Shown here: positions 416 to 21,716 of the stretch, one piece after another | Layout of the letters: the number at the start of each line of letters is the position of its first letter | Numbering within the stretch: position 1 is the stretch's first letter | Source of the DNA: an uncultured Bacteroidota bacterium | GTDB lineage: Bacteria > Bacteroidota > Bacteroidia > Chitinophagales > Chitinophagaceae | Direction: 5' to 3' | Assembly: GCA_903887415.1 (NCBI GenBank) | Contig: CAISPO010000038.1 | Span: 62,001-126,000, forward strand | Length of the DNA stretch: 64,000 nucleotides | Made by a program: the position numbers and the translations under genes | Notes under the pieces: generated by a model | Told to the model about the DNA's origin: nothing | Seen by the model: only the letters and a program-made list of their open reading frames with translations | The model's database searches: none

Positions 416-3400
416 CTACTCCACTATTACTTTACCAGATTGCGTTTTACCATTCGTTATCACCTGATACAGGTAGATACCGGGTGTATAAGATGCTACA
501 TTAAAGCTGGCAAGGGTACTGTTTTGTAATGTTTGCTCATCCATTTTACGGCCTACAACATCAGTTATTCTTATTGTGATGTTATCCTGTTGTGAGTATT
601 GAAAATTCAGCACCATACTTGTAGGTATAGGATATACATTCAGTCCTTGTATCAAAGATTGCTGGTCACGGTTGTTGGCAACCTGTATATTGCCGTTACT
701 TCCGCTACCTCCGCCGCTATTACCATTTCGGGAATCGCTGTGATGACGGGATGTGGGCGAACAGCAGGGCAGGTTCAATAAGTTTTGCTGTATGTTTTGC
801 CCGTACCCACTGTTTACATTGCCCAGAGTGGGTGGCACGGCACCGCCTGCATCGGCAGGCAATTGCTGCCACTGAGCAGGATTGCCAAGATCGGCAGCGC
901 TGCTGCCTGTGAAGCAATACTTATATCCTCTGCCTGTGCTGTTAATAACAGGGCCGCCGAGGCAGGCAGTGTCAGGAGGTATGCTGCCGAATTGGTTAGG
1001 ACCTGAACCGGGGCCATAACCAAAGCCATGATAGAATTCAGGCTGCTTGTTCATATCGTGGCCGCATCTTGGACACCTCACCTGGAAAGCATCACAACTG
1101 GAATCGAAATTGATGGTGTTCTGCCAGTTGCCTCCATAAGTATAATAGGTGCTGTCATACGTGCTGTCGCTCGCGGTGGTAATGGTATCTACCACATAAT
1201 TGCACAGCGAAGAATCGAGAGTAAACTGGAAACGTTGTATGTGCGGCGTGCCCAACGGATAAGTGGTTGCCCCGCCCAGCGGCACCCAATAGGTATTACC
1301 AAGGCTGATGCTGTTGAACGAGGTATTAATGGTACCTGCGTTAGCGGTTATCGTAAATGAATCCGGCAGATTGTAACAATTGCTATCTGCGTTATATACT
1401 ATGATTGTGCTGCCGACCGGCACATTGCCCCAGGTAGCATCATAAGCCAGCCGGTAGTGGCTCTGAGTGATCCCTCCGAAGATGGTGCAGCCGCTCAGGT
1501 TAAAATTGCCGCTGTTATCATCTATTATCCAGCCTTGCACATTTACAGTTGGTGAGTTGCAAATGCCACAGTTAGATACCGTAAGCTCGCCATAGTCGCA
1601 GCCGGATACCGGCGCTAATGCCGACGACTGCGCACTGATTGAAGTGGTAGCAGGGCCGTTAGATAATTCGGTTACAGTAAGCACTCCTGGGCAGGGCGGC
1701 GGTGGCGGCTTGTATCTTAACTGAAAGGAATAGCCACCGTAAACCGTATCATATCTATACGTGGTATCATAAACAGTAGTGTACACCGTATCAAATACAC
1801 TGCTATACACAGTATCATAAACCATTGCATAGATTACGCTGTCATAAGTGCTGTCAACAGAGCTAACCAATGAAGTATCTATCGAGACTGTATAACCGCT
1901 ATCAATTAAAGTCCTGACCGGTGCGCTAAAATTTAATTGTCTAAAACTAACAGTTTCATTAGGCATGTTTTCCCCATTTACTCCCGGCAGCAGATCAAAT
2001 TCAATTTCTACAGGATAAATAATTCCTGTGTCCAGGTTAATGCTGTCTAAACGCATTGTATTACTACCATCAAATGTTACTGACTTTTCATTTGCATCAA
2101 CGGCAGCATAAGTGCCATAAGCACCTGCGCGGGACCATATATCATAAAGGTCACCAAGAAATACTTTGGCACTAATGTAGTTTGAGAGTGTACTTATACC
2201 AGTACCCGGTTGTAGTACAGTGCCATTTACAAACTGCAGGCTGAAATTATCTGACACTACACCGCCATTACCCACAACAACCGTATGGCTATGCCTTAAA
2301 TGACCAACATAAGTGATCGCAGTATTCCGTGAAGCGATGTTATTATTATTCGAAATGTTCGGACTAATTGAACCTGTAGTAGCCTCACAAGTTGTCATTC
2401 CATCCGTGCAGGCCGGGTTGTGCCCATCTAATATTGTTGCAAGGAAACATAAACTGTAATAGGGAGGTAAGCTGGGGCATGAAGACGGATAATATAAATT
2501 AGGGTTCGGTGTGGTCCACGAATTTTGTACGATTGTGCTGCCGCCTGCGGGTATAGAAGGAATAATACTGCTGGATAGGTAATATCCTATCAATTGGTGC
2601 GACCCATCGCAAGCTGTAAAATCTCCTCCTGTCCAGTAGTAAGGCCACGTTTCCGGTGATTCGCCCATTGTCCAGTAATTATTTAGTGTCGCAGTTATTG
2701 TGCTATTGTCATAGTCCACGCATCCTACATTTCTTACCTTCACATTCAGCCAGTTTACTCCCGCTCCGGGACCTGACGCAATATATTCAGCAGCTTGGTT
2801 TTCCTGGTTCATAAGCCCGTCATCAATCAGCCTGTTCCAGATGTCCGGGCTGGAGAAAATATCACTTAGGTCGGGCTGGCTGTTAGGCTCATCATAAAGG
2901 TCAAAATGGGAATCGCGGGAAGCAAGGTCAAAACCTGATGTAATAAGTGTATTCTGCACATGTTGCGATGTCTGGCAGCCACTACCGTCGGTAACAGTTA
3001 GCATATAATTGGCTTTGTATATTGGTGTATATACTCCATGAAAATAAGCATGGCCAATACCGGTTATCGTGGGGTCGGCAATATCATAATGGTCCAGTGT
3101 TACATAATCCGGTACCGAATATGTACCACCGCCACCGCTTATTACCGATGATATTGGAGTCCACAAATAAGAATACCCTCCGGTACCACCTGTCACCGTA
3201 ACCGAATATTTGGGCGCAGGTGCAGTGGCTCCTGCTGAGCCCGGTGCGCACCGGGTATTAATGTCTATATCTGTTATCGTGGGTGGGGTAATAATAGTTA
3301 TAGGAGCAGAAGCCGTATAAGTTGAAATACCATCACTTACGGTCAGATTTATTATAGGGGTTGCGCCATAGTTACCTGTTGTGTTGTAAACCAGGTAAGA

Positions 3401-10330: not shown

Positions 10331-11041
10331 ATGAACGAACAATTAATCGAGTTTCTGAAAGGAACTCCAAACAGCAACAAAGCCGCGATCACAGCAGCAA
10401 TCGAAGTCAAAGGGCTTCCACTTTTCAACCTCCTGAAGAAGATGCTGATGGATGGACAGATCACCTCGTTAGGTGAAGGGAATGAAACGACTTATTCACT
10501 TGCTGAACCTCAATCAGAAGAGCAGCCAATAGCAGAAGAAGCACCTCAACCCGTTGTTGTAAGTGAAGAAGTCCAAGTTACAAATGAACAAGCCGGACAA
10601 GTAGAGCAAACAGTTACCGTAGTGGATGAAGCCGCCAACGAAGAAAATAAGGAAAAAGGCCAGCAGGATATAAAAGCAACTGCAACCAAGTCAACAACCA
10701 GCCGCGACAATACCAAGTATGTTTTTGAGAAAGAAACTTACGGAAAAGGCAAGCTGGTGGTTGCTTGCCTTAAGAAAATCGTTGAACTGAACCCATCAAC
10801 AACATTCGCCCAGCTCAAAGAATTGTTTCCCGATACATTAATGAAGCGCTTCGGGGTGTTTGAAGAAATAAAAAAAGCAAAAGAAATATCGGGTACAAGA
10901 GACCGTTATTTTTTCAAAGAAGAGGACGTGATAAAACTTGCGGACAAGAAGGTCGTTATCTGTTCTCAATGGACCGCTGGGCTAATCGCGGAATTCATCA
11001 AAACCGCCAAGACCAACGGCTTGAAAATCAAAGAAGCATAA
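10331..11041 (+). CDS. Two-domain hypothetical protein, possible DNA-binding C-terminus
   Basis: This is a 236-aa protein. Residues 1-58 (MNEQLIEFLKGTPNSNKAAI...) are helical and look like a small winged-helix unit. Residues about 58-130 are an acidic Glu/Gln/Val-rich linker. Residues 135-236 (KYVFEKETYGKGKLVVACLK, then FAQLKELFPDTLMKRFGVF and RYFFKEEDVIKLADKKVVIC) form a compact alpha/beta domain. I know this C-terminal pattern from phage- and restriction-associated Bacteroidota proteins but cannot assign a function. It has its own promoter-like box and a strong terminator directly downstream, so it is probably monocistronic. Its composition and position fit an accessory gene. Confidence 0.7.
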   Translation: MNEQLIEFLKGTPNSNKAAITAAIEVKGLPLFNLLKKMLMDGQITSLGEGNETTYSLAEPQSEEQPIAEEAPQPVVVSEEVQVTNEQAGQVEQTVTVVDEAANEENKEKGQQDIKATATKSTTSRDNTKYVFEKETYGKGKLVVACLKKIVELNPSTTFAQLKELFPDTLMKRFGVFEEIKKAKEISGTRDRYFFKEEDVIKLADKKVVICSQWTAGLIAEFIKTAKTNGLKIKEA

Positions 11042-13837: not shown

Positions 13838-15448
13838 TCACCACCATCGTTTATCGCGGCTGCTCGTGTTGAGGTTGTATTGCCTGCATCGTTCTTGTTC
13901 CTCCTCAATTTCCTTGCTCTTTCTCGCAAGCTCGTCCAGTTCATCTATGTACCGTTGCTCGTCCGGCGACAATTCAGCCTCTGGCTTATATTGGATCGCT
14001 TTCCCTGTTTGGTAAAGAATTTGAGTATCCAGTACGTCACAATGTTTGATTTCGGCCTCGACATACGTTATCTCAATCCTCTCGTTCTCCATCTCTACCA
14101 CGTCCTCAAGCTCTATTGGCTCAATGTTCCAGTATCTCTTTACGGTGCTTATGCTGATCCCTGGTATTTCTTTTTCTTTAGCCTTTTTGTTTATGTAATC
14201 ACACACCACCTGTTGCGTAACTTTATAAAGGTTCTTTCTTGTTATTCGAGTAGTAGTATTAGTAATAACAAGAAAGATACTTTTTGATTCTTCCATTAAT
14301 TCCTCTAAGTAATTCCTTACCTCTTTTATTATCCGGATAGATTTTATCCTTTTATCCAAGCCTATGTGTTCGTATTTGAGCCTTCTCTTTGCAACACCGG
14401 ATATAGTGTTCTCCTTATAGTGCCTCTTCTTTATCCTGAGCTTAGGTTCAACTTTTCCTGTCTTCATTATGTCATTCTCATACATAGAGTACACCAGCTT
14501 GATTAAGTCCTGAGTTAAGGAAGGAGTGACCGTATAGTTCTTGTTCACGAAGAAAAGATAGCTGTAGATATAATCCGGTGAGATGCCTGGATTCAGGTAT
14601 GCCAGGTTGTGTATCATTCTACCATAAACCCTTAATTTCTGACCATCAGGTATCTTGCCAGGGCATTGTTTGTAATATGGTATTATGACCTCGCAGTATT
14701 CCATAGGTTGGTAATCGTATATCCTGTTCTTCACAACATAAGGTGTACGGAGTTTTACTTTTTCAAGCACCTTGGAATAGGAATACAGCTCGTAAGTGTG
14801 TTTTCTTTTCTCAGGTTTTGCGAAAAGGTTCTTTCTTGTTATTCGATTAGTAGTATTAGTAATAACAAGAAAGATACTTTTCGGTATTTCGAGTATTGCA
14901 TCAGGATTATAGTAACAATTAGGATCGGAGGAGATGAACCATACTCTCGATTTATCTCCTGTGTTATCGTCAAAGTCTTCACCTTTGAACACGTTGTCAA
15001 GAACATATTCTCTTGCCTGGTAGAAGTTTTGTTCGTTTATGGTTCCCTCCTGCAGCTTTACGAATATAGATATTCCCCTGCCTGAGGAAGAAAGGCAGCA
15101 CAAGGTGATCACATGCTTGTATTTTTCAATGAAATCGTCTCTGTACTTTTCAAAATCAACTTCTTCTGTAGCTTCGAAATCCTTGTCGAAGTACAGGTAG
15201 TCGGAGAACTGCGTTATGTTCTCATCGTTCCTTGTTCCGTTGAATAATGATACGTTGGGAGTGATGTAGTCGAGCGTTTTTCTTTTAAGCGCGTCCTTAT
15301 TTTTCTTGTATTCCGGTTCTAAGTGGTCGAGAGACCTTAAGTTAGCTATGTTTGGGTCGCAACATTTTATTTTGTTGACCAACTGTTCTGTGCTCTTTAT
15401 GCCTGAGGGTGTGATGTTTCGTATTGGTTCTTTGAAGTAGACAAACAT
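13838..15448 (-). CDS. VirE_N / BT4734-type protein with two palindromic inserts
   Basis: The frame opens at 15532, but the family start matches ATG 15448-15446 (MFVYFKEPIRNITPSGIKST), and a terminator-like hairpin lies in the extra part; length is then 536 aa. Residues 1-190 carry the VirE N-terminal/BT4734-like pattern: a basic LK-x-x-TLDYITPNVSLFNGTR block, YLYFDKDF, a SSSGRGISIFVKL loop and DKSRVWFISSDPNCYYNPDA, as in primase-polymerase-like proteins of Bacteroidota mobile elements. The rest is Lys/Tyr-rich and helical, ending in an acidic coiled coil. Residues about 190-209 and 389-408 are the same 20-residue peptide (KSIFLVITNTT-x-RITRKNL), each encoded by a 58-bp hairpin-forming repeat. 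A role in element replication or mobilisation is inferred. Confidence 0.7.
   Translation of the reverse strand: MFVYFKEPIRNITPSGIKSTEQLVNKIKCCDPNIANLRSLDHLEPEYKKNKDALKRKTLDYITPNVSLFNGTRNDENITQFSDYLYFDKDFEATEEVDFEKYRDDFIEKYKHVITLCCLSSSGRGISIFVKLQEGTINEQNFYQAREYVLDNVFKGEDFDDNTGDKSRVWFISSDPNCYYNPDAILEIPKSIFLVITNTTNRITRKNLFAKPEKRKHTYELYSYSKVLEKVKLRTPYVVKNRIYDYQPMEYCEVIIPYYKQCPGKIPDGQKLRVYGRMIHNLAYLNPGISPDYIYSYLFFVNKNYTVTPSLTQDLIKLVYSMYENDIMKTGKVEPKLRIKKRHYKENTISGVAKRRLKYEHIGLDKRIKSIRIIKEVRNYLEELMEESKSIFLVITNTTTRITRKNLYKVTQQVVCDYINKKAKEKEIPGISISTVKRYWNIEPIELEDVVEMENERIEITYVEAEIKHCDVLDTQILYQTGKAIQYKPEAELSPDEQRYIDELDELARKSKEIEEEQERCRQYNLNTSSRDKRWW
14227..14284 (-). repeat. In-frame palindromic element, copy A
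   Basis: This 58-bp copy is identical to copy B apart from one base (14250). Arms of 14 bp at 14233-14246 (TCTTTCTTGTTATT) and 14264-14277 are perfectly complementary around a 17-nt loop. It lies inside the VirE_N-type gene without breaking the frame and encodes KSIFLVITNTTTRITRKNL on the minus strand. Confidence 0.85.
14824..14881 (-). repeat. In-frame palindromic element, copy B
   Basis: This is the second 58-bp copy, 597 bp (exactly 199 codons) from copy A and in the same orientation and frame. It falls straight after the conserved CYYNPDAILEIP block, so it probably sits at a domain border. It encodes KSIFLVITNTTNRITRKNL; the only difference from copy A changes Thr to Asn. The same 14-bp arms and 17-nt loop are present. 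Confidence 0.85.
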
Positions 15449-15451
15449 TAA

Positions 15452-15497
15452 AAATGAAAAATGAAAATCCCCGCCAGAAATCGTACTTCTGACGGGG
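15452..15497 (-). terminator. Terminator-like hairpin just upstream of VirE_N-type start
   Basis: Reading the minus strand, CCCCG-x-CAGAA-type arms (15497-15487 and 15479-15469, ten pairs with one mismatch) close a 7-nt loop and are followed by a T-rich tract (ATTTTCATTTTTCATTTTT) ending 3 bp before the ATG at 15448. It has the form of an intrinsic terminator in the 5' leader: either the end of an upstream transcript or an attenuator for the gene. Confidence 0.6.
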
Positions 15498-15808
15498 TCA
15501 TCATTCACTTTCGTGAAATATATTTCGGTCACTTCGTACGATGAAAATAACTTACTTACCTATATTCTTTTAAATACTGAACGGCTAAGTATTTTAACCG
15601 TATGGCCGAATTTAACCGTATCCCGGCTTTCTATGAAGTAACTCGCCGATTATTTTACAGCTCCACGAAATGTCAATATTGATATGATATGCAGTTTATG
15701 TGCTGCGTGATTTTATTTCTCGTTTGAACTCACGCCGGTTTGCTGCAAGCCGTTTATACTGAAACAAAGTTTTGATGAAATAAACAAGCTCCAGATCACT
15801 CCAAACGA
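15498..15808. other. Leader/intergenic region with one palindrome site
   Basis: This is the gap upstream of the VirE_N-type gene. It holds island palindrome site 4 and the word AGCCGTTTATACT (near 15741) also seen near 11322. No gene or RNA is supported; the extended reading frame up to 15532 crosses the hairpin and is not thought to be translated. Confidence 0.5.
15669..15686. promoter_or_regulatory. Island palindrome site 4 (16/18)
   Basis: AATGTCAATATTGATATG matches the palindrome except at positions 15 and 18. It is about 220 bp upstream of the VirE_N-type ATG and on the far side of the terminator-like hairpin. Confidence 0.6.
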
Positions 15809-16276
15809 CTACCTCTGCCGTTGCCTGCAGTTTCTTAGCAGGAATTCCCTGTCGATATTCAACACCACGAAACCTACCTCTTTGCGAGAAATGGGAAACA
15901 TACCGCCCTCGGCACCCTGCATGAAGAACCGTATGAGTTCGCCGGCATGTAAGTAATACTCGCCTTTCAAACCGGACAAGTTCACCCTGATGAAATTTCT
16001 GCCGATGACAAACGAGCCAATCAGATTCAAGCCGCCACCGTCCAGGACTTCTGCTTCGAACATGGAGACGCCGGCGGATTCCAGCTCCTTGACGCCATGC
16101 TTAAAACGGTGTTCGAAATAGAGATGTCTGTAGGGTACATCAAGATTATACTTGTGACCCGGCATGATCTTAGGATAATATTCAGCGTCTCGGAGCAGTT
16201 GCGTGATAAAGCTATCAATGATTGCATCCTTGACCCATTGTTCCGTGTAATTTTCGTCTTTCTTCTTCCTGTCCAT
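15809..16276 (-). CDS. Hypothetical island protein
   Basis: The open frame reaches 16384, but its first codons (MNVNIDI) are simply the translated island palindrome, so ATG 16276-16274 (MDRKKKDENYTEQWVKDAII) is preferred, giving 155 aa. It has a helical N-terminal half (FITQLLRDAEYYPKIMPGHK) and a beta-rich C-terminal half (GGLNLIGSFVIGRNFIRVNL, then EVGFVVLNIDREFLLRN). It has no signal peptide, membrane segment or domain I recognise. It is transcribed in the same direction as the methyltransferase upstream but is separated from it by a terminator, so it probably has its own promoter near the palindrome. Confidence 0.55.
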   Translation of the reverse strand: MDRKKKDENYTEQWVKDAIIDSFITQLLRDAEYYPKIMPGHKYNLDVPYRHLYFEHRFKHGVKELESAGVSMFEAEVLDGGGLNLIGSFVIGRNFIRVNLSGLKGEYYLHAGELIRFFMQGAEGGMFPISRKEVGFVVLNIDREFLLRNCRQRQR

Positions 16277-16363
16277 TGCTATTTTAAATACTTGCGCCCT
16301 CAGAGAGAAGGCTATAGCAACTCTGTTACGAGACCTACGTCTCAAACCGGCAACGAACTGAAG

Positions 16364-16381
16364 AATATCAATATTGACATT
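16364..16381. promoter_or_regulatory. Island palindrome site 5 (17/18)
   Basis: AATATCAATATTGACATT has a single change (G to A at position 4). It is 88 bp upstream of the chosen ATG at 16276 and 25 bp after the methyltransferase terminator in the direction of transcription, a position suited to a promoter-proximal operator. Confidence 0.65.
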
Positions 16382-16405
16382 CATGTAGGTAATACAAAAT
16401 AGGAA

Positions 16406-16439
16406 ATACTGGCGGTGCCAAAAGAGACACCACCAGTAT
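16406..16439 (-). terminator. Terminator of methyltransferase gene
   Basis: ATACTGG-x-GGTG (16406-16417) and CACC-x-CCAGTAT (16428-16439) form an 11-pair stem with one mismatch, just after the stop of the methyltransferase. The minus strand then reads TTTCCTATTTTG. It is a good stem with a modest U-tract. Confidence 0.65.
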
Positions 16440-16444
16440 GTATA

Positions 16445-17383
16445 TTATGCTCGCCAAGTAGGAGATTTCATCAGAATTTCGTGAAGGATGTGCCTCATGA
16501 TGGCTTCTGCAAATTGCGGCATGACCATATTACCCATAGTTTTTCTTGCCCTTGTCAACGTTAGAGCGGAAAAGTCGACTCCCGTCATATCAGTTAATAT
16601 CTGGCGTTCACGAATAGTAAGCTTACGCCACCTGCCATCAATATATATCTGTTCGCTGTCGCCGCCAGTCATGGTACCAAATACCTTTTGCCTGCCGTCC
16701 TGTGGCGCTTGTTTGAACTGACCGGAACGATACTTTTCTGCTCCTATTGAAGCAAAGGCAGACTGCTTTGATAGGTCTACTGGCTGTGGTGCAGGTAAAC
16801 TTGCAGGTATTTTGAGGTCTTTTCTTACACCGACTATAACCACCCTGTCGCGAGATTGGAGTGCTCCAAAATTCTCTGCGTTAAGCTCTTGCACTATCCA
16901 ATCATAGTCTGTCATTTTTTTCATTTCATTATATACCAGGTCTCTAAATGGACGCAACTGTTGGGTCATGAACGGAGGTACTTGCTCTATAAAGACAGTT
17001 TTCGGCTTAGCCTCCTCTACTATGCGAAGCATTTCGAGCATGAGCATATTCAGTGGATTGAATACACTCCTTTTACTGCTTATAGAAGTCATACCGAAAC
17101 AAGGGGGGCCACCGACGAGACAGTCAATATCACCTATGTCAATAAGAACCTCAATTAGTTTTAACTCCCGCTTGATGTCGGCAAATGTCAGGTCACAAAC
17201 GTCCGACAAATAAAACGTCTCTTTTAAAGCGTGTATCGCTTTGTTGTAGTTGTGTAAGAAATGTTCTCTTACATCAGGCTCTATGTCTGTTGAGAACGGA
17301 GTATAGAAATCGGTGCGCTGTGCACCGATCTCAATACCACGTACATTCGAAAATAATCCTACTGCTATCGGTTTCTTTTTCAT
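16445..17383 (-). CDS. DNA (cytosine-5) methyltransferase, orphan
   Basis: This 312-aa enzyme transfers a methyl group from S-adenosylmethionine to C5 of cytosine in DNA. Motif I is variant (GLFSNVRGIEIGA, residues 9-21). Motif IV is GGPPCFGMTS with catalytic Cys95. Motif VI is FIEQVPPF with Glu133, where the usual ENV is EQV. Motif VIII is QSRDRVVIVGVR, and motif X is TMGNMVMPQFAEAI. The target-recognition region between VIII and X is short (about 80 residues), so the recognition site cannot be inferred. No restriction endonuclease gene is adjacent, which suggests an orphan (regulatory or anti-restriction) enzyme of the island. It has its own terminator, and the ParB-like gene lies 55 bp upstream in the same direction. 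Confidence 0.85.
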   Translation of the reverse strand: MKKKPIAVGLFSNVRGIEIGAQRTDFYTPFSTDIEPDVREHFLHNYNKAIHALKETFYLSDVCDLTFADIKRELKLIEVLIDIGDIDCLVGGPPCFGMTSISSKRSVFNPLNMLMLEMLRIVEEAKPKTVFIEQVPPFMTQQLRPFRDLVYNEMKKMTDYDWIVQELNAENFGALQSRDRVVIVGVRKDLKIPASLPAPQPVDLSKQSAFASIGAEKYRSGQFKQAPQDGRQKVFGTMTGGDSEQIYIDGRWRKLTIRERQILTDMTGVDFSALTLTRARKTMGNMVMPQFAEAIMRHILHEILMKSPTWRA

Positions 17384-19293: not shown

Positions 19294-19325
19294 TTTGGTA
19301 TCCCTATTTGTATTTTGTAGCTTTG
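19294..19325 (+). promoter_or_regulatory. Bacteroidota-type promoter TTTG-N20-TAGCTTTG
   Basis: A TTTG -33 element (19294-19297) and a perfect TAnnTTTG -7 element TAGCTTTG (19318-19325) are separated by 20 bp. This places the transcript start about 10 bp before ATG 19341, supporting that ATG rather than the upstream ATG at 19308 inside the promoter. Confidence 0.75.
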
Positions 19326-19340
19326 CTGCATAATTATATT

Positions 19341-20132
19341 ATGACCACATCTGCTGGCACATCGGACATAGCCCTTATTAATGCTTACGAGGAAATTGCA
19401 GCTTACAAGTGGGGCGATACATTCTCTTGCAGGAAGTGCGGCTGTGAAAAGTTCTTTCCAGGAAAGAAACCATCTTCAAGGCGATGTTCAAGATGTAAAA
19501 CATTAGAAAGCGTGACGGCACATACTGCCTTTCATAAACTAAGGATGCCTATACCGGTGGCCTTGGACATCATCAAACAGATAACTGGCGGCAAGGCAAG
19601 GCCAATGTCATATAGCTTAGTGAAAGAAATAGTAGAGAGGTATGGTATCAAGATGAGGCAGAAGACCTACTGGGATTTTATCAAGAAGATAATGCTGCTG
19701 ACGGCAGAAGAGCAGATGTTCAACACGAAACTTACGGTATTCAAAGTAGACTTCGGCAGTTATAACATTTTGCTCTTCAGAGGAAAGACCGATAACGGGG
19801 AAAGGTATTTCGCTTGCGTATATAAAGGAAGTGAAGAAAAAATGTACAAGACTATCGACTGGTACTGTCTGCCGGATACCCCAAAGGTCATCGCCACAGG
19901 TAAAATGAAAACGAGCAGAGAATATGTTTTTGAAATAGTCTACCGCGATACCGGCGCCAGGAGTTACGACCTATATGAAGAAATGCTCGAACTATGGTCT
20001 TGGCTTTCCGGCATACATCCGGTAAAATCCACGGAAGACAACATCCAAATGTATCTGGACGCTTTCACGTTCGCTATAAATGGAAACGGCTACGACCGCC
20101 TGATGAACATCCTCGTCGCCGATAGGAATTAA
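19341..20132 (+). CDS. Transposase-derived zinc-ribbon protein (IS1595/ISXO2-like)
   Basis: This is a 263-aa protein from ATG 19341. Residues about 28-75 form a zinc ribbon, CRKCGCEKFFPGKKPSSRRC followed by SRC and a TAHTAFHKLRMPIPVAL segment, as in the N-terminus of IS1595/ISXO2 transposases. The remainder has the length and final motif (IQMYLDAFTFAINGNG) of that family. However, the DDE-type landmarks I expect (E/D-x-D-E-x-x-x-GG, TDG-x-x-Y, H-x-N-x-x-E) are not evident: only VFKVDFGSYN remains at the first site. A catalytically dead, possibly domesticated transposase acting as a DNA-binding protein is the best reading. It has a strong promoter of its own, and no terminal inverted repeats were found around it. 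Confidence 0.65.
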   Translation: MTTSAGTSDIALINAYEEIAAYKWGDTFSCRKCGCEKFFPGKKPSSRRCSRCKTLESVTAHTAFHKLRMPIPVALDIIKQITGGKARPMSYSLVKEIVERYGIKMRQKTYWDFIKKIMLLTAEEQMFNTKLTVFKVDFGSYNILLFRGKTDNGERYFACVYKGSEEKMYKTIDWYCLPDTPKVIATGKMKTSREYVFEIVYRDTGARSYDLYEEMLELWSWLSGIHPVKSTEDNIQMYLDAFTFAINGNGYDRLMNILVADRN

Positions 20133-20480: not shown

Positions 20481-21716
20481 ATGAAAGACAAGAATTATTC
20501 GGTTAATATTTACTGGGACAAGCGCTATCCGAAAGTTGGTACTGAGCTTTGCCCAATACAACTCTTCGTAAATATCAACGGCTTGCAATTCAAGGTCAGC
20601 TTAAAATTATATTCCTCGAGCGAAGATTATATAGCCGCAATGAGGGGCAGAGGCGGGAGCCTTGATATAAAGGAACTTCGTAAGCAGATCAACGATTACA
20701 AAGACAAAGCAGAGAAAATACTTGAACGCCTGCCTAACCCATCGAGGGAAACGTTTAACCGGCTTTTCAAGTCAGAGACTGATCTTTTTGCTTCAAACAA
20801 AACGGACGTTTCTTTTTTGTTCGGCGAGTACATAAGAACATGCGAGGAGGAGGATCGGATAAAAACGGCGCTCAATTTAAAAGCAGCGCTCAACTCTTTT
20901 AAAAAATTCAGGCCGAAGTTGTTCTTGGAAGATATAGACGAGGCTTTTTTAAAAGGATACAGGCGCTGGATGGAAAACCAGGGCAACTCTGCGACTACGG
21001 CGCAAATCTACATGAGGAACCTGCGATCTATATTCAATAAGGCTATCAAGGATGGATACATTTCAGAGAAGCACTACCCCTTTCGTAATTATACAATTGG
21101 CACGACGGCAAAATCGAAAAGTGTCTTGTATTCTGAACAACTAAAGGCGCTATGGGAGTATGAGCCGTCCGGTTTGAGGGAACGCAGGGCTAAAGACTAT
21201 TGGTTCTTCTGCTACCTCTGTAACGGGATGAACTTCAAGGACGCGGTTTACTTGAAGTATAAGGATATGAAAGGCGAAAATATTTCCTTCGTTCGCGAGA
21301 AGACCAAGCACACGAATACTGTTTCGGAGAAAGCAATCAAAGTATACCTTCACGATGAGATCAGGCGTATAATCGAGGCATGGGGAAACAAGGACGGCAA
21401 GCCGGACGAACACATCTTCCCTATGCTCAACGGTTGCAAGACTGCTATCGAGCGAGAGAAGAGGAGGAAGACGCACCAGCGATTGACGAATAGGATGCTG
21501 AACGGCATAGGTGTAAAGCTGGGGTTTGAAGAACGGCTTGTATTGAACCTGGCTCGTCATAGTTTCGCTACACACTTGAAACTTGCAGGTACGCCCGTTT
21601 CATTTATCACGGATGCGTTAGGCCACTCAAGCGGCAAGACCACCGAGCACTATCTTAAATCCATCCCGGACGAAAAATATAAAGCGATTTCGGACAGCTT
21701 ACTGAGCTTTAAATGA
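20481..21716 (+). CDS. Tyrosine recombinase / integrase
   Basis: This 411-aa site-specific recombinase would integrate and excise the island. Residues 1-95 are an arm-binding-type N-terminus. Residues about 105-205 are the SAM-like core-binding domain (FLFGEYIRTCEEEDRIKTAL...). The catalytic domain follows, with the family-typical YLCNGMNFKDAVYLKYKDM box. Arg359 (LARHSFATHL), His382 (LGHSS) and the nucleophile Tyr391 (EHYLKS) are visible. In this Bacteroidota group the first Arg box reads xGMNFKD rather than SGxR, as seen here. The gene is about 1.9 kb from the tRNA(CAU) 3' end, which is a plausible attachment site. An 82-aa ORF follows after 6 bp. Confidence 0.9.
   Translation: MKDKNYSVNIYWDKRYPKVGTELCPIQLFVNINGLQFKVSLKLYSSSEDYIAAMRGRGGSLDIKELRKQINDYKDKAEKILERLPNPSRETFNRLFKSETDLFASNKTDVSFLFGEYIRTCEEEDRIKTALNLKAALNSFKKFRPKLFLEDIDEAFLKGYRRWMENQGNSATTAQIYMRNLRSIFNKAIKDGYISEKHYPFRNYTIGTTAKSKSVLYSEQLKALWEYEPSGLRERRAKDYWFFCYLCNGMNFKDAVYLKYKDMKGENISFVREKTKHTNTVSEKAIKVYLHDEIRRIIEAWGNKDGKPDEHIFPMLNGCKTAIEREKRRKTHQRLTNRMLNGIGVKLGFEERLVLNLARHSFATHLKLAGTPVSFITDALGHSSGKTTEHYLKSIPDEKYKAISDSLLSFK

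Follow-up and report, generated by a model that had tools for sequence, protein, structure and literature searches.

We describe a pair of near-identical DNA hairpins that lie in frame within one primase gene of an uncultured Chitinophagaceae bacterium (contig CAISPO010000038.1; the stretch of 64 kb analysed is here called the window). The gene (13838..15448, minus strand; 536 aa from an ATG at 15448) encodes an archaeo-eukaryotic primase (AEP) of the BT4734-like family and belongs to a small integrating element, which also carries an integrase gene. The hairpins are members of a ~60-bp DNA stem-loop family linked to a single type of integrating element, and the pair is an inherited feature of this one gene. 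Tentatively, we propose that they serve the primase as intragenic origin or priming sites.

Results

The copy at site 1 (14824..14881, minus strand; residues 190-208, with numbering from ATG 15448) is located at the junction of the AEP and middle domains, and that at site 2 (14227..14284, minus strand; residues 389-407) at the junction of the middle domain and the C-terminal helix-turn-helix (HTH) region. Both are 58 nt long, agree at 57 of 58 bases, share the same orientation and are spaced by 597 bp, that is 199 codons. Each has perfect arms of 14 bp around a 17-nt loop, with an outward extension containing two mismatches, and both are read as KSIFLVITNTT[N/T]RITRKNL within the minus-strand open reading frame (ORF) 13838-15532. 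Length, single difference, orientation, spacing, perfect arms, loop and peptide had been described in an earlier inspection of the letters and ORFs (the sequence-only reading) and were confirmed to the base. No other hairpin with perfect arms of at least 12 bp and a loop of 10-45 nt is found in the window, and first-order Markov copies of the window (n=20) contain 0.05 on average. Folded as single-stranded DNA (ssDNA), the two copies have z-scores of -6.9 and -6.5, with none of 200 shuffles as stable.

Searches for homologues gave matches in 7 of 197 relatives, 67 of 394 family genomes and, at E<=1e-20, 6 of 396 order genomes, and were extended to the genera of G329 and G256 (11 and 2 genomes). 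Among the 67 family genomes matching alignment A1 the comparison covered the long matches. Ten long homologous genes were compared: that of the window (G000) and those of genomes G001, G028, G329, G256 (two genes, G256a and G256b), G371, G210, G071 and G216. The pair is present at the same two linkers in the first six of these genes, where G000 and G001, with 96% identity, are treated as a single lineage. Proteins only 37-40% identical still keep hairpins at the same two sites. In G371 and G210 only site 1 holds a hairpin, and the site-2 insert is absent from four of the ten (G371, G210, G071 and G216). The sequence-only reading had treated both blocks as insertions that homologues might lack, and had named a conserved peptide at the same two places in all homologues as the contrary outcome. 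Each holds in part: the second insert is missing from four genes and the places are shared by six, and the peptide is not conserved. N-terminal matches (L026-L048), scanned for repeats and hairpins, contained no such pair. Approximately 200-300 bp downstream of the G071 primase gene (L013 ~3026-3109) there are palindromes of 26 and 28 nt, a position that might be that of a moved site.

We compared 18 hairpin copies with each other, 15 of which form alignment A6 (leaving out G001 site 2, G371 site 1 and G210 site 1); inverted copies and the G315 copy were turned to a common orientation. Identity between sites 1 and 2 of the same gene is 0.98 in G000, 0.93 in G028, 0.86 in G329, 0.75 in G256a, 0.86 in G256b and 0.95 in G001. 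Between genes, copies from five genes are on average 0.63 and at most 0.81 identical (n=40), with shuffled letters giving 0.49. The likeness of the two sites ends where the palindrome ends and includes the loop. In both G256 genes the element at site 2 is the reverse complement of that at site 1, and the frame is still open. From these comparisons, the within-gene likeness is concerted evolution of a DNA unit. Of 13 codons that changed between the sites in G000, G001, G028 and G329, 12 changed nonsynonymously, and the site 1/site 2 changes number 5, 8 and 4 at codon positions 1, 2 and 3, compared to 11, 5 and 40 for G000 versus G001 outside the elements. Since the changes are nearly all nonsynonymous and spread over the codon positions, selection on the peptide cannot explain the likeness of the two sites.

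In the structure model of the primase (mean predicted local distance difference test score, pLDDT, 74; predicted template modelling score 0.41; built from 9 sequences), pLDDT falls below 50 at residues 195-215, 390-407, 463-486 and 528-536, and the first two of these stretches overlap the hairpin peptides. The peptides are likely to be disordered linkers, although gap-rich alignment columns lower the model confidence too. Given that the peptides are not conserved and sit in low-confidence linkers, it is the DNA, not the peptide, that is kept.

All hairpin types can be aligned in one register. In A6, 78.3% of cells pair against a shuffle mean of 63.4, 46 cells show a two-sided change against 19.6, and the covariation score is 0.382 against 0.159 (slid registers give at most 0.194); none of 500 shuffles reaches any of these three values. 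A smaller alignment, A4, gives the same picture. The sequence of the arms has been rewritten between lineages, with complementarity mostly retained. The ssDNA folding z-scores of 16 copies extend from -2.1 (G329 site 1) to -11.3 (the G256 intergenic copy). Arm mismatches on the coding strand are A-C in 11 cases and G-U in one (about seven separate positions against one), a bias that was seen post hoc. A hairpin in the mRNA should give the opposite bias, and on the non-coding strand the 11 would be wobble pairs; we treat this as a lead only.

Copies elsewhere were sought with two covariance models. The host genome contains no further copy beyond the two, its remaining matches having E>=0.86. 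Model R1 finds clear copies (E<1e-3) in three of 394 family genomes (G256, G329 and G315), and model R2, at E<=0.01, in three of 119 relatives only: G000 (2), G001 (3) and G028 (2). At these thresholds and with strict filters on, no copy lies in an unrelated gene in the 394 or the 119 genomes. Thus the search for the element in host and relatives, suggested by the sequence-only reading together with the caveat that no copy might exist in any related genome, had a divided outcome: relatives do have copies, in the homologous primase gene and between genes, and none were found further in the host or, at these thresholds, in unrelated genes. At E<=0.1, R1 matches 10 of the 394 genomes; the seven weak matches (E 0.013-0.095), not traced to genes, were set aside, five of them showing no consensus ends by eye (G450 and G231 are outside that five).

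Third, intergenic copies are found at G329:C21:33095-33154 and G256:C113:6545-6603, in the gap between a methyltransferase gene and a small gene. They precede the small gene by a few tens of bases and adjoin a TGTCAATATTGACA-like palindrome; in G256 the mechanical GTG start of the small gene overlaps the hairpin, the start shared with homologues does not. The intergenic copy of G001 is ~0.8 kb upstream of the primase ATG, and a short mechanical ORF on the opposite strand overlaps it by 25 nt. Beside it (L084 9714-9962) a 20-bp repeat, GAAAAGCCGGGTACTTATAT, occurs three times with spacings of 123 and 105 bp. With regard to features of miniature inverted-repeat transposable elements, inverted ends are present, and inspection of the intergenic copies by eye shows no target-site duplication; no search for a transposase was made.

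Against viral contigs the primase protein as a single query found 0 relatives and each alignment found one N-terminal relative, and tblastn against phages and plasmids found none. The window's hairpin pattern is absent from viral contigs and occurs in one record of the genome contigs, which is the G001 contig. The arm pattern AAAGTGCAA..TTGCACTTT occurs in 6 of 149 genomes, of which G001 and G028 alone match the family profile; the matches in G016, G052, G079 and G172 were rejected on this ground, as were 28 viral stretches with the arm pattern (best profile E 2.7). The G256 intergenic copy gave 4 and 2 weak records in phages and plasmids (E 0.2-0.7), with too little coverage for relatives.

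Turning to the protein, the start at ATG 15448 is taken from homologues, and the mechanical ORF begins at a possible start, GTG 15532. Residues 56-180 (14909..15283, minus strand), the catalytic AEP part, match PF08800 at 26.0 bits (cut-off 22.4), as do 7 of 9 aligned members at E<=0.1. The sequence-only reading had called the gene VirE_N-type, in agreement with this match (E 1.3e-5): PF08800, named BT4734-like_N, is presumably the family formerly called VirE_N. Residues 1-195 of the structure model match the AEP fold. Motif I of AEPs, hhhDhD as defined in the cited part of PMC5862659, is LYFDKD in the window primase, and both D are invariant in 9 of 9 aligned members. By domain, fold and motif the product is an archaeo-eukaryotic-type primase of the BT4734-like family, and primer synthesis is its predicted activity. 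The structure model has a C-terminal three-helix region (14078..14215, minus strand; residues 412-457), in which one homologue (1 of 9 members) matches the winged HTH family PF13412 at E 1.2e-4. Pfam detects no helicase domain in the primase. The C-terminal tail, DTQIL..EAELSPDEQRYIDELDE (window ~13838-14020), is common to a different replication-type protein in G033 and at a second G028 locus (L014 1501-1758, L017 688-924; DUF6876 nearby), where it is the only part in common and no hairpin with arms of at least 10 bp is present.

The two G256 genes differ along their length. Their DNA identity, in means of 15-codon blocks, is ~0.90 to codon 180, 0.83 over codons 181-195 and, once hairpin 1 begins, ~0.65 as far as the alignable end. 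This suggests an exchange between the catalytic domain on one side and, on the other, a unit comprising hairpin 1, the middle domain, hairpin 2 and the HTH region. Between G000 and G001 no identity step occurs anywhere along the gene, and with one gene pair the evidence for domain exchange at hairpin 1 is thin.

The surrounding element has a tyrosine-type integrase gene (20481..21716, plus strand; phrog_1, E 1.1e-34), a C5 cytosine DNA methyltransferase gene (16445..17383, minus strand) and a small gene of unassigned function (15809..16384, minus strand), whose homologue in G329 and G256 lies downstream of the third copy. The gap where those genomes have the third copy is occupied in the window by a different hairpin (16406..16439). 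The palindrome AATGTCAATATTGATAT (15669..15685) is upstream of the primase gene; each G256 primase gene has a related palindrome ~260 bp upstream, and others adjoin the third hairpin in G329 and G256. The TGTCAATATTGACA-like palindromes recur at window 15669-15685 and 16363-16382, upstream of the G256a and G256b primase genes, and by the third hairpin in L113 and L114; they are possibly operators of an element-encoded regulator. Two further proteins of the window gave sub-threshold matches: that of 10331-11041, kept in several such elements, to phi29 terminal protein GP3 (18.5 bits, cut-off 25), and that of 19308-20132, adjoining the integrase gene, in its N-terminal part to an IS1595-type zinc ribbon (22.1 bits, cut-off 25.4).

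Discussion

Hairpins kept in the same place with changed sequence suggest DNA sites useful to the element, as opposed to dispersed junk repeats. Because of the parallels with pRN1, RepB' and lambda considered below, we rank first the reading that these stem-loops inside the gene provide the primase with an origin or with priming sites, a proposal we hold to be somewhat short of evenly balanced. The hairpins would then be cis-acting sites used by the very primase whose gene they interrupt: a protein with an AEP domain and an HTH would assemble at origin or single-strand priming sites and initiate replication of the element after its excision or transfer. The flexibility of the linkers would allow the inserts to be tolerated, the likeness of the two copies would be maintained by conversion or template switching between them, and joint change of site and protein would yield lineage-specific sequences. 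The full proposition, that paired sites of this kind persist as linkers in the frame of their own primase, homogenised by conversion and with rewritten arms, so that initiator and origin form one co-changing gene, is a little more doubtful than its central claim.

Several observations count against origin or priming sites. The loops are as alike as the arms, and duplication or conversion is therefore needed besides selection. Two covariation measures are not above shuffles (pairs with two-sided change, 12 vs 10.6, reached by 132 of 500; further pair types, 18 vs 19.6, reached by 418 of 500), and same-gene copies are not independent. The G329 copy at site 1 folds poorly, no hairpin is present in the G216 primase gene, and in that of G071 site 1 retains a relic at most (E 0.007 with R1, 0.48 with R2). 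The G001 intergenic copy is 0.51-0.53 identical to its own pair, no nearer than shuffled letters, and 0.84 identical to G028; such an off-type copy would not be expected from one binder with a single kind of site. The G315 copy, near a contig end and outside listed ORFs, is accompanied by no match to the primase or the small gene. Finally, the GTG start motif of the pRN1 and RepB' primases (GTG/CAC) is absent from the window's element, although it is present in arms of the G028, G329 and G256 copies.

The sequence-only reading had likened the pair to the Rickettsia palindromic elements (RPEs). The in-frame palindrome, the keeping of DNA over peptide and the intergenic relatives agree with this, but no dispersal was found, either in the host or, at the thresholds used, in the 394 and 119 genomes, and for this reason we do not file the hairpins as an RPE-like family. 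A selfish palindrome of that sort, of no use to the element, could have anciently entered two tolerant linkers and intergenic places, with conversion keeping the copies alike and hairpin-templated repair keeping the arms complementary. It would account for copies in frame and between genes, in both orientations, for an unconserved peptide, for insertion in linkers and for the G001 intergenic copy that differs in type from its pair. However, it did not spread into unrelated genes at the thresholds used, it keeps the same two sites in genes whose proteins have diverged so far, and a useless insert is expected to decay or vanish more often than in two of ten genes; we consider it rather unlikely. 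Somewhat less probable again is a regulatory site controlling the primase and small genes, be it a dyad for an element-encoded protein or a structure of the non-coding strand (antisense RNA or ssDNA). The position of the third copy in G329 and G256, just before the small gene and beside a TGTCAATATTGACA-like palindrome, and the wobble bias of the arm mismatches point this way, but two copies deep in coding sequence are unusual for an operator, the corresponding gap of the window holds another hairpin, and the loops are homogenised too.

The identity drop at hairpin 1 in the G256 genes and the tail that recurs in G033 and G028 in a replication-type protein of another kind are consistent with hairpins acting as borders for exchange of primase gene parts between elements, by homology or a recombinase. 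As there is no drop at hairpin 2, G000 and G001 are alike throughout and a single paralogue pair is informative, we judge this improbable. Two alike peptides in one protein might also arise from ordinary domain or peptide duplication, or from misassembly, which we regard as barely credible: the peptide differences are nearly all nonsynonymous, the inverted copies destroy the peptide, and the same pair is present in the independently assembled genome G001. Ends of the IS200/605 type and attC-like cassettes were dropped as candidates, the stretch between the hairpins being an ordinary protein part in homologues without hairpins.

If the hairpins do serve as an origin or for priming, a single coding sequence would unite the initiator with its origin. 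Its linkers would be shaped by DNA structure and not by protein function, and the coupled change of initiator and origin could be traced base by base from element to element. This would provide a concrete candidate site for the AEP primases of bacterial integrating elements, for which we found no origin descriptions in the open-licence literature searched; nor did that literature on Bacteroidetes palindromic elements, AEP origins and coding-sequence hairpins yield a description of this case. If they are selfish, they would represent a coding palindromic element that is restricted to one gene and one type of mobile element, outside Rickettsia, with unusually clear concerted evolution.

Known systems share individual features with the pair. 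RPEs, of 100-150 bp and with 44 in R. conorii, are according to the cited parts of PMC10969869 and PMC3767692 likewise palindromic DNA read in frame within many unrelated genes and also found outside genes; here in contrast the element is ~60 bp, has two host copies at two fixed sites of one gene and none found in an unrelated host gene, and its arms are rewritten between lineages. Nematomorpha mitochondria also have inverted repeats inside translated genes, but there both arms encode conserved protein (PMC6649704, in part), whereas the window peptide is an unconserved linker. Recognition of hairpins by an AEP primase has been shown for RSF1010, whose RepB' binds ssiA and ssiB (PMC4434180); each strand has one such site, of 40 nt and with a GTG start motif, and the cited part does not describe them as coding linkers of the primase. 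Placement of a candidate origin within the coding sequence of its initiator has a parallel in lambda, where the origin repeats lie inside gene O (PMC4488673, in part), although these are iterons of 19 bp, four in a cluster next to an A-T rich stretch, and the initiator is unrelated. The archaeal plasmid pRN1 similarly combines an AEP-type replication protein and a winged-helix domain with a stem-loop that is needed for replication and can be moved, and among its relatives the letters of the loop region differ while the fold is kept (PMC4234260, in part). For our hairpins, three of five covariation measures above all shuffles (and two not) point to the same keeping of structure over sequence. 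pRN1 differs in having one 100-nt stem-loop downstream of the gene and a superfamily 3 helicase in the protein, whereas here two copies of ~60 nt lie inside a gene whose product has no helicase domain detected by Pfam.
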